This document shows positions 11,004 to 13,632 of a stretch of 33,038 nucleotides of DNA, piece after piece. The stretch is from a virus. The stretch lies in the IMG/VR virus record IMGVR_UViG_3300031951_000730, positions 1 to 33,038 of that record. One strand, written 5' to 3'. Position 1 is the first letter of the stretch. Each line of letters starts with the position of its first letter. The notes under the pieces were generated by a model. The model was not told where the DNA came from, searched no databases, and saw only the letters and a program-made list of their open reading frames with translations. The translations under genes and the position numbers were made by a program.

Positions 11004-12935
11004 TCAGTCCTTCTTGTAGCGGCGCGTCTCGAAGCCAGCCGCAGCAAGCGGCAGCCCCAACGACCAGCCGGGATTGGTGGACATGATGCGCGACAGCTCG
11101 TCGACCGAATACTCGTCGGTGTCTGGCGTCTCGGTGATCAGCTCGTCATGCACGTGCAGGCAGACGGCGTAACCGGCAGCTTCAGCGCGGAACATGCCGG
11201 ATGCCAGCACGTCACGCGCAACGGCCTGCACGACGTTCTCGGCCAGCTTGCCGCCGTAAGTCTCGATCGTCTCCCACTTCTTGGTGTACTGGTTGACGCC
11301 CTGATACACGATCGTGCCTTCATCAAGGCCCGCGTTCGGGTAGCAGAGGTAGCGCCCGCTCGGCAGCTTGATGCGCAGCCAGTTGTCCTTGTAGCCGATT
11401 GATAAGTCGCGCACCGTGAAGCGCTTATTGGGCGCGCGGATTGCGTCCTTTACGGCGCGCTCCAGATCGTACCACAGCGAGACGACGGCCTTGTGCGCCT
11501 TGCGCCACGCCTCGACGATGCGCTTGACCTCGTCCTCAGGCAGGAACACGCCATAAAGCGCAGCCATGCTGCTGAACGCCCCGACGCTGCCCTGATAGCC
11601 CAGAGCCAGCTCCTGCACCTTGCCGATCTGGCGCTCGTCCTTCGTGACGTCCTCGGCCTTCTTGTTGAAGGACTTGGCGTAGGCCAGCTTATAGAGATCG
11701 TGACCGACGCCTGCGTCGAACTGCTTAAACGCCTCGGTCTTCCAGTCCTCGCCGGCCAGCCACGCAAGCACGCGCCCTTCGATGTTGGACAGGTCGGAGA
11801 CGACCAGTTTGCACCCCGGCGCAGCGATGAGTGCCCCGCGCACGGCGCTCGAGCATAGCTCGGACACGTTGTCGAACAGCAGGTCTTCCGCGTCGAGCTT
11901 CATGGCGTCGATGCCGAAGTCGATCTGCGCTTGCTTCATTGTCGGACGTGGCAGGTTCTGAGGCTGAAAGAGGCGGCCTCCCCAGCGTCCTGTACGAGAT
12001 GCACCGCAGAACTGAAGCGTGCCGCGCAAGCGCCCGTCGGCACTCGTCGCCTTCAGCAGCACCTTATATTTGGCAGGAGACGTTGCTGAAGCCTGCTGTC
12101 TGATCTCTAGCAGCTCCCGCACCTCTGGCGTCAAGGTGCCTTGCAGCAACGTGCTGACGGTGCCCTTCTTGAGGTCCGGCGTCGTGAACGCCAGCGTCTG
12201 CTCGAGATGCTCAAGAAACTTGCCGCGCTGGGTCAGCGAGCCGACCGCGCCGTTGGTTAGAATTCGGGTTCGCTCAGCCAGATCTCGCGAGCTTCTTTGA
12301 AAAGCTCGTAGTGCAGCGTTTGCGAGCTCAACATCGATGGCGATACCACGGTCATTAATTTTCTGATCGAGGAGCCACAGAGCGCGTTCACCTCCATGAC
12401 GGTTCCAGTCTGGGAGCAGTCGGTATACGACGCGCATTGCGTCCACATCGAGGCGGGCGTATTCGATGAAGGCTGCCCACTCGTCGGGATGTGTGTCACG
12501 GTTAGCCCTCCTGAGTTTCACGTTCTTTGGCCGAGGCTTCGTGAGCAAGTGTATCAGCTTTTTACCTGCTTTGTCTTTAGCTTTATCTTGCGGGACGCCT
12601 AAAACGTCACACAGCGCACCCAGCGAACCGGGCAGGCCATGCGCCAGCGCGATGACCATCGTGTCCTCGACCTTATCGAGAGGCATGTGCACGCCGCAAT
12701 GGCGCAGCACCGTGCGATCGAAGGCGCTGTTGTGGATCACGATTTTGTCCGCCGTGTCGATCATCATCTGGACGCTGTCCAGCGAGCCGCGCTCGGTCAG
12801 GTCCATGACCTCAACCGGCTCGTCGTCGAACGCGTACGCCACAAGAAGCACCTCGGCATTCTCCGCGTACTTGTGCGTGCCATGCGTGATCGGCGTCTCG
12901 CTGTACGTTTCGAGGTCGAGCCAGAGCGTCGTCAT
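11004..12935 (-). CDS. Family A DNA polymerase with 3'-5' exonuclease
   Basis: A 643-residue replicative DNA polymerase. The proofreading domain is intact: motif ExoI D7-L-E9, ExoII N69 with D73, ExoIII Y159-x3-D163. The polymerase domain shows motif A SDLSNIEGR (380-388, with metal-binding D381), motif B starting R435-x3-K439 and continuing GYQG, and motif C HDE (596-598). The 5'-3' exonuclease domain is absent, as usual for phage versions, and motif B has the phage-type YQG instead of YG. The ATG overlaps the TGA of the HTH gene (ATGA), so its translation is probably tied to that gene and to the structured leader upstream of it. Confidence 0.96.
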   Translation of the reverse strand: MTTLWLDLETYSETPITHGTHKYAENAEVLLVAYAFDDEPVEVMDLTERGSLDSVQMMIDTADKIVIHNSAFDRTVLRHCGVHMPLDKVEDTMVIALAHGLPGSLGALCDVLGVPQDKAKDKAGKKLIHLLTKPRPKNVKLRRANRDTHPDEWAAFIEYARLDVDAMRVVYRLLPDWNRHGGERALWLLDQKINDRGIAIDVELANAALRAFQRSSRDLAERTRILTNGAVGSLTQRGKFLEHLEQTLAFTTPDLKKGTVSTLLQGTLTPEVRELLEIRQQASATSPAKYKVLLKATSADGRLRGTLQFCGASRTGRWGGRLFQPQNLPRPTMKQAQIDFGIDAMKLDAEDLLFDNVSELCSSAVRGALIAAPGCKLVVSDLSNIEGRVLAWLAGEDWKTEAFKQFDAGVGHDLYKLAYAKSFNKKAEDVTKDERQIGKVQELALGYQGSVGAFSSMAALYGVFLPEDEVKRIVEAWRKAHKAVVSLWYDLERAVKDAIRAPNKRFTVRDLSIGYKDNWLRIKLPSGRYLCYPNAGLDEGTIVYQGVNQYTKKWETIETYGGKLAENVVQAVARDVLASGMFRAEAAGYAVCLHVHDELITETPDTDEYSVDELSRIMSTNPGWSLGLPLAAAGFETRRYKKD

Positions 12936-13234
12936 CCGCGAAGACCGTGAATGATCTCGCTTACGCGGCCGCCATCGATGTTGAAGACCCGGCCGATCTC
13001 ACGGTTGGGCATATCGGGATTTGCAAGCACGAATGCGCGCACTTGATCGCGGATCGCAGCCGTAATGCGTGCCGATTTTGTTTTTGCGTGCTTCTTTGCC
13101 GGGCGGCGGAAAGACGCGTTTGCGAGGCGCGTAACCTCGCTGGCTATCTCTTCGTGGCGTTCGGGATGGTTGCGCAGTTCGTCAGCAAGCTTCCACAGCT
13201 CAGTGCGAATAACGATGATTGATAAATGTTCCAT
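12932..13234 (-). CDS. Helix-turn-helix protein upstream of the polymerase
   Basis: A 100-residue protein. Residues about 56-100 form a HTH-like unit with IRDQVRAFVLANPDM, then PNREIGRVFNIDGGRVSEII, resembling the small homeodomain-like HTH of phage regulators and HNH-associated proteins (NxxIGxxFxxxxGRVSEI). The N-terminal 50 residues are helical and charged, followed by a Lys-rich linker. It has a strong GGAGG sequence at 13244-13248, which can be masked by two upstream segments (see the leader). It overlaps the polymerase start by 4 bases. It may regulate its own operon; that is inference. Confidence 0.78.
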   Translation of the reverse strand: MEHLSIIVIRTELWKLADELRNHPERHEEIASEVTRLANASFRRPAKKHAKTKSARITAAIRDQVRAFVLANPDMPNREIGRVFNIDGGRVSEIIHGLRG

Positions 13235-13374
13235 TCGTAGTGTCCTCCGTTCAGGTGAGGCGCGCAGCGGTTATCAAGCAAACGGAGGGACATCCGCACA
13301 CTGCGCGCCTCGCCAGAAGGGAGGACGCTGCGGCAGGTGACTTCCAACCCCGCCGCAGCGCCCCTCTTATACGC
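13235..13374 (-). promoter_or_regulatory. Structured leader RNA with two anti-Shine-Dalgarno segments
   Basis: The 140 bases between the GapR stop and the HTH start hold no gene but can fold strongly in the leftward transcript. A 9-bp stem pairs 13352-13360 with 13326-13334. An 11-bp stem GAGGCGCGCAG/CTGCGCGCCTC pairs 13301-13311 with 13257-13267. Inside its loop, CCTCCGTT (13281-13288) is exactly complementary to AACGGAGG (13244-13251), which contains the HTH gene's ribosome binding site; this is a pseudoknot-type order. A second segment, GTCCTCC (13320-13326), can instead pair with GGAGGAC (13242-13248). The two pairings compete for the same site. No U-run follows the stems, so they are not classical terminators. 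A translational switch is inferred; the ligand or partner is unknown. Confidence 0.6.
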
Positions 13375-13632
13375 TTAGATCAGGTCTAAGCCAATAGCGC
13401 TGGCGTAAAGATCCAACAGCGCCGCTTCTTCGCGGCGGCTGTCGGCGTCCTTCTTGCGCAGAGCGACCAGCTTCTTGATGATCTTGGTGTCGAAGCCGAC
13501 GGCCTTAGCCTCACCATAGACGCTCTTGATGAACTCCATGATGTCCTGCTTCTCGTCCTCGAGCTTCTCTACGCGCTCGATGATCAGGCGGAGCTGATCA
13601 CCGGCAACGCTGTTGTGTCCTAGTTCAGACAT
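13375..13632 (-). CDS. gapR: GapR-like nucleoid-associated protein (DUF2312)
   Basis: An 85-residue protein matching the GapR/DUF2312 family nearly end to end: [20 protein letters not shown], then [20 protein letters not shown], then [22 protein letters not shown]. In Caulobacter, GapR binds overtwisted DNA ahead of replication forks and stimulates topoisomerases. The family is typical of Alphaproteobacteria and their phages, so this is the best host clue in the window. The ATG at 13632 has a GGAGGG sequence upstream. It sits between the ssDNA-binding protein and the polymerase genes, consistent with a replication role; whether it serves the phage fork or disturbs the host GapR is not known. 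Confidence 0.9.

Follow-up and report, generated by a model that had tools for sequence, protein, structure and literature searches.

Introduction

To our knowledge, autogenous control of phage replication proteins through mRNA folds has been detailed mainly in T4-like phages. Pseudoknots that sequester the Shine-Dalgarno (SD) sequence are common riboswitch expression platforms; in particular, the SAM-II and preQ1-II riboswitches incorporate the SD region in a pseudoknot. In T4, the gp43 and gp32 operators are autogenous, so replication proteins that close an mRNA fold have been seen before, and the gene 43 operator is a hairpin-loop of 18 bases (16 in RB69) that precedes the start codon by approximately 40 bases (PMC3014915). 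The T4 gene 32 pseudoknot, which according to the same review is perhaps the sole viral pseudoknot in translational autoregulation, lies 67 nt upstream, where it nucleates cooperative binding across a site that is itself unstructured (PMC3014915). In phage Mu, Com bound to a nearby short hairpin opens the translation inhibition structure of mom (PMC6483171).

Here, we describe a leader from a 33,038-base viral contig, in which the replication module is encoded leftward; this whole stretch of DNA is called the window below. As in T4 and RB69 gene 43, structured RNA directly precedes a phage DNA polymerase gene and lies at or near the ribosome site, and the logic proposed here is likewise one in which polymerase synthesis is autocontrolled. 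However, the T4 gene 43 operator is small and has no pseudoknot, whereas the leader described here contains a 20-25 bp stem that includes the SD, an additional stem (P0) and a pseudoknot. In place of the small gp43-type hairpin with a conserved loop upstream of the SD, the window leader thus has a long SD-including stem. Additionally, the T4 DNA polymerase belongs to family B, while the polymerase considered here belongs to family A. The resemblance to T4 gene 32 lies in a phage replication gene, a leader pseudoknot and, as we propose here, translational control; in T4 the pseudoknot is distant and the gene encodes the single-stranded DNA-binding protein (SSB), whereas here the pseudoknot covers the ribosome site and the gene encodes the polymerase. 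The Mu com-mom system has its start region in a stem before the Mom gene, as do two of our leaders (L074 and L121; PF25680), but unlike Mu mom, most leaders here precede a polymerase or HTH gene. The SAM-II and preQ1-II riboswitches are alike in their SD-region pseudoknot, but the alignment of the leaders described here shows no conserved unpaired ligand core, and there is no Rfam match.

The initial annotation of this locus knew of no named RNA class with such a layout, and this holds: Rfam 15 returned no match at the gathering threshold in the window, where the best sub-threshold matches were mostly eukaryotic miRNA and snoRNA models. The literature, with subscription journals partly covered, yielded no account of the leader or of RNA motifs at gapR/DUF2815 loci, an absence that is not proof. 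The element is a real, conserved and apparently undescribed phage mRNA leader.

Genomic context of the leader

The leftward gene order of the window begins with an AAA/PriCT-2 protein, a DUF2800 exonuclease-like protein, an Enc34-type ssDNA-binding protein and a GapR homologue (13375-13632, minus strand; PF10073). The leader is followed by an HTH-like small protein (12932-13234, minus strand; start codon 13232-13234), a family-A DNA polymerase with a 3'-5' exonuclease domain (11004-12935, minus strand; PF00476 and PF01612), a VRR nuclease and a SNF2-type helicase. The HTH-like protein showed 42% identity to the post-leader HTH protein of the relative L095, and its gene is joined to the polymerase gene by an ATGA overlap, just as the initial annotation had described. 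Directly past the gapR stop, we found a -10-like TATAAG (13366-13371, minus strand), whose position is kept in most relatives, at a spacing of 17 nt from a -35-like TTGGCT within the gapR 3' end (13389-13394, minus strand). Of the leaders that have the TATA, 25/25 showed a codon ending in T in the -35 region, versus 7/15 of those that lack it. A simple sigma-70 promoter scan did not have the TTGGCT/TATAAG site among its listed sites. We infer that TTGG-N17-TATA is a promoter whose transcript would begin near the base of P0, which in the window coincides with the predicted start at approximately 13358-13362.

The HTH protein revealed no relatives as a probe in a single-sequence scan, and its L095 version revealed none among cultured phages; therefore, relatives were collected by polymerase and GapR searches of IMG/VR. 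These relatives contained 63 distinct leaders of the same plan (approximately 60 sequence variants), located between gapR and the family-A polymerase, with one copy per record. Among 44 leaders examined, the polymerase directly followed the leader in 26, with no HTH gene between, and an HTH protein of the window's family followed in 12 and also in L106, for which an earlier ATG had been taken as the start. A nuclease-like protein followed in L018, L078 and L102 (assigned by eye, with no firm Pfam match), and a Mom-family gene lay between leader and polymerase in L074 (near 2217) and L121 (360-974). The HTH protein had been suggested as a ligand of the leader; because its gene is absent from many members, HTH sensing is not a general rule.

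In 58 distinct post-gapR stretches, which were picked by the synteny of gapR upstream of the polymerase and not by the stem, a long stem (score 16-27) was present in 49, while shuffled versions scored no more than 15. Additionally, a context-blind scan of 2.9 million IMG/VR viral contigs for the stem pattern matched 70 contigs. The polymerase was downstream in 68 of these, and the remaining two end too soon; gapR was upstream in 62, with seven cut off and one (L157) carrying a truncated gapR. A covariance model of the leader (R1) gave the window, itself among the 37 rows that built the model, a score of 76.1 bits (E ~1e-23), and 76 bits on the minus strand compared with 45 bits on the other strand. 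The window shows both the R1 plan, namely P1/P2 with GG(C/U)GAG...CU(A/U)CC and the SD in the 3' strand, and the R1 placement, with gapR upstream and a DNA polymerase downstream. Weaker scores were obtained for L125 (45 bits), L136 (31 bits) and L126 (23 bits), whose leaders are possibly related to the R1 family. A prophage search of genome contigs revealed only four polymerase relatives, with an R1 match in neither of the two genomes tested. Among cultured phages searched by DNA similarity, the full element was absent and only a short form was found, in the Caulobacter phages RW and KcrB (C. vibrioides CB15); RW and its relatives have P0, a shorter P1, a tiny loop and no pseudoknot. The claim of a pseudoknot-bearing, structured leader on the ribosome site of the polymerase operon is upheld in relatives. 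The RNA fold is conserved and stays with the ribosome site of whichever gene opens that operon.

Overall fold of the window leader

The stems and complementary segments of the initial annotation were all found at their positions on the minus strand. P2 is an 11-bp stem of GAGGCGCGCAG (13301-13311) with CUGCGCGCCUC (13257-13267), evident from both fold and alignment. The first anti-SD segment, GUCCUCC (13320-13326), is exactly complementary to GGAGGAC (13242-13248), which holds the SD sequence GGAGG (13244-13248); these are the two arms of P1a, and they show two-sided changes in relatives. The second anti-SD segment, CCUCCGUU (13281-13288), lies in the loop and is the exact complement of AACGGAGG (13244-13251). 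A further 9-bp stem pairs CGCUGCGGC (13352-13360) with GCCGCAGCG (13326-13334), and base 13326 is common to this stem and the GUCCUCC segment.

The minimum free energy of the window leader was -89 kcal/mol, compared with -64.5 +/- 4.5 kcal/mol in shuffles (z -5.4), and none of 200 shuffles was as good. In this fold, the GUCCUCC-GGAGGAC pairing and the 11-bp stem form one continuous long hairpin (P1+P2) and are not alternatives to each other. The 9-bp stem can be extended to 12-14 pairs (P0; 5' arm 13349-13362, 3' arm 13324-13337) and is a separate hairpin abutting P1+P2 upstream; P0 has 11-17 pairs in 40/41 leaders, with differing sequences. The long hairpin consists of P1a, the C13319.C13249 mismatch, UUC/GAA, the U13315.U13253 mismatch, GG/CC, the C13312.A13256 mismatch and P2, all mismatches being 1x1; the arms of P1b are UUC.GG (13313-13318) and CC.GAA (13250-13255), as seen in the alignment. 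The loop also contains a conserved 3' segment, UGCUUGAUAACC (13269-13280), for which the window clade shows no conserved partner. The sole alternative pairing in the window is that of the loop segment CCUCCGUU with the SD region AACGGAGG. All of these pairings cover the ribosome site; therefore, the fold is best described as a lock. The leader contains no terminator-like site and no U-tract after the GC stem, and is thus no intrinsic terminator.

Three further candidates were rejected. An ON state could arise if an extended P0 took up the first anti-SD and so acted as an anti-anti-SD; such pairing is possible by eye in the window (GGGG with UCCU) and L084 but is not kept in L005, L006, L020, L034 or L040. 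The loop sequence UUGAUAA could pair with UUAUCAA, which spans codons 4-6 of the window HTH gene, but the 7 bp are within chance and the rest of the clade lacks them. A leader peptide in the form of an in-frame TTG ORF occurs in L004 and L010, with no counterpart in other clades.

The length of the stem bears on cleavage by a host enzyme. In the lambda N leader, RNase III cleavage frees the ribosome site, and P1/P2 offers 22 pairs with 1x1 internal loops, or approximately two helical turns, that host RNase III might cut to the same effect. However, the apical loop would still be paired to the start region after the cut in pseudoknotted members, and we consider an RNase III-gated leader quite unlikely. 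The initial annotation had also raised temperature sensing, and the SD is indeed buried in a mismatch-bearing stem. This stem is GC-rich, and in the model the SD opens gradually and to a small extent as the temperature rises to 50 °C, where the unpaired probability of SD bases does not exceed approximately 0.2 (energy model only, with the pseudoknot uncounted); an RNA thermometer is therefore scarcely credible.

Stem covariation and the never-paired position

Covariation in relatives, which had been named as a check on the proposed fold, was evident in the 37-leader alignment, in which 17 of the 22 stem pairs showed both-side changes with pairing kept (kinship not corrected for). In the same alignment, 95.7% of cells were paired compared with 43-57% in slid registers, and 0/500 shuffles reached any of these measures; the pairing figures are inflated because rows were partly picked by a stem filter, with 39 filtered rows required to carry the mismatch beside GG/CC. 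The synteny-chosen set described above and the partner-swap test of the pseudoknot are free of this bias. RNAalifold, unaided, arrived at this stem together with its internal mismatches.

Upon comparison of the 63 distinct leaders, we found the GG/CC of P1b to be invariant and the adjacent position (C13312 and A13256 in the window) never to be paired: it was C.A in 50, U.U in 12 and C.C in one. The context-free pattern scan permits C.A, U.U, C.U or a paired U-A here, and its hits included no paired case among distinct leaders. In L126, which is outside the 63-leader set, this position is a paired U-A. Judged from the alignment, the GG/CC beside a constant C.A/U.U position resembles a site at which a trans-acting protein would make contact.

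The same comparison distinguishes RNA from DNA. The element sits in a replication module, and its long inverted repeats could form cruciforms, so that an origin or a set of protein-binding inverted repeats acting as DNA might be considered. However, G-U outnumbered A-C by 17 to 3 at the tested stem positions of the 63 leaders and by 32 to 5 in another count, which indicates that the element acts as RNA of the leftward strand. The register is also fixed relative to the SD and the start codon, whether the next gene encodes a polymerase, an HTH, a nuclease-like or a Mom protein, and a DNA-level element is very improbable.

Pseudoknot between the loop and the ribosome site

In 43 of 61 distinct leaders (approximately 70%), a loop segment of 7-13 nt was strongly complementary to part of the stretch between the SD and the first bases beyond the start codon, compared with 1.8 for shuffled loops. 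Loops paired with their own tails scored 1265 versus 1029 +/- 27 for swapped partners, a value reached in 0/10,000 permutations (kinship not corrected for), so that the loop-tail pairs co-vary as well. In particular, loop GAUAA occurred with tail UUAUC, and loop GAUAC with tail GUAUC, in 32/33 cases. Different sequences form the pairing in different clades: GGUUGUCCCA with UGGGACAACC in L034, L037 and L038, GCUGAUCCUUC with GAAGGAUCAGC in L110, and GGGUGUCCUC with GAGGACACCU in L074. The pairing is weak or absent in some clades (L020, L021, L093 and L216). Judged from these complementarities, the pseudoknot is a family feature, though not a universal one.

In most members, the partner of the loop lies 3' of the SD, in the spacer to the start codon, and P1 and the pseudoknot can therefore coexist. 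Members of the window clade instead offer the SD itself as partner, so their pseudoknot would compete with P1; it would be of 10 bp (L006), 8 bp (the window), 8 bp with one G-U (L007) or 6 bp (L004 and L005), which is short in the window, L004 and L005. There, P1 is the stronger of the two (-16.6 versus -12.0 kcal/mol, before any pseudoknot cost). The proposed competition thus fits the window clade, but in relatives the pairings are usually compatible. The idea that the two anti-SD segments form a switch found no support in the analysis, as both cover the same SD and neither state is ON; both pairings hide the ribosome site, and we therefore regard them as two locks rather than an on/off pair.

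The loop might also be expected to hold a ligand. In a riboswitch, binding of a metabolite (for instance a nucleotide) to the loop or to the internal loops would alter SD access. Such an element would share the SD-sequestering pseudoknot, and many members keep the loop sequence GUUGCUGAUAAC. However, GUUGCUGAUAAC, the equivalent of UGCUUGAUAACC in the window, is the pseudoknot strand in most relatives, and this pairing accounts for its conservation. The segment changes freely between clades (GGUUGUCCCA, GGGUGUCCUC), and the alignment has no invariant unpaired core of the aptamer kind. A loop-based aptamer is disfavored because the loop is variable and, in RW, nearly absent, and we regard a riboswitch as improbable.

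The wide variation in loop sequence and length is also in line with an unregulated brake, a fold that sets a low, constant translation of the polymerase with no ligand; so are the persistence of a shortened version in RW and the SD being predicted as mostly closed at every temperature modeled. A weak SD would nevertheless be a simpler route to the same end, and the always-mismatched position, the invariant GG/CC and the co-varying second lock exceed the needs of a brake, which leaves this explanation unlikely.

Variant leaders

In L155 (on the same contig as L120) and L187, the HTH gene behind the leader is a 16-codon relic (MKLTIPQIRDILHGKR and MKFTIPQIREILHGKR, respectively), and the leader, start codon and polymerase junction are kept. 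This natural deletion suggests that the body of the HTH gene is dispensable while the start and the coupling are retained. In L105 (2500-2710), L157 and L198, the leader is joined to a truncated gapR and has lost both the promoter-like site and the 5' arm of P0, and P1/P2 and an 11-bp pseudoknot remain. In L020, L021, L093, L161, L165 and L174, where the polymerase is directly next, the UAUCAGC tail is lost and the loop GUUGCUGAUAC is kept; sisters of the L020 clade with HTH or nuclease-like inserts retain the loop-tail pairing.

Other leaders depart further from this plan. Bordetella phage BPP-1 and its relatives (L061 2190-2330, L122 and L126) have a two-hairpin leader between the SSB and the polymerase operon, which consists of P0 and a nearly perfect stem of 16-22 bp, with the SD likely outside the stem. 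L127 and L130 have a different leader upstream of the polymerase, with a CACCCGG...CCGGGUG hairpin whose 3' arm could instead pair downstream (GGGUGUUUUGCAAAG with UUUGCAAAGCACCC) in an attenuator-like manner. In L169 and L186, the ORF after the leader (MPPKTLTGVGAVMSAAHRDREGALHGHTWEITAWF...) resembles, by eye, the QueD/6-pyruvoyl-tetrahydropterin synthase type, which would fit deazaguanine DNA modification.

Proposed function of the leader

We propose, with a probability of roughly 0.6, that the leader acts in cis as a translational operator on the polymerase operon, under the control of a trans-acting protein. The transcript would begin near the P0 base and fold into P0, after which the 20-25 bp P1/P2 stem would form with the SD in its 3' strand; in most variants, a pseudoknot would follow, in which the apical loop takes as its partner either the SD or the spacer that leads to the start codon. 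The two locks together would hold initiation at the first gene low, and where another gene precedes the polymerase, ATGA coupling would extend the low initiation to the polymerase. In the most likely logic, which is that of feedback, a phage replication protein in excess would keep the fold closed, as do T4 gp43 and gp32; alternatively, a Com-type opener might act on the fold. Translational repression, the promoter, and the protein ligand with its identity and sign are what we infer beyond the fold itself. A narrower form of the operator reading, held tentatively and open to real doubt, is a pseudoknot operator that is double-locked and replisome-sensing, which would make it a new class of phage regulatory RNA. 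Under this reading, a replication protein would recognize the conserved stem mismatch and tune polymerase synthesis, while the first gene behind the leader (polymerase, HTH protein, nuclease or Mom) is swapped.

The leaders described here are a large, well-covarying set in unrelated phages that appears to control polymerase dose. The set offers a covariance model, defined compensatory pairs and natural variants that lack single parts, and the cultured Caulobacter phages with the short form are accessible at the bench. The regulatory RNA stays put while the genes between leader and polymerase come and go, and the leader most likely represents a form of control over polymerase production that had not been described before.
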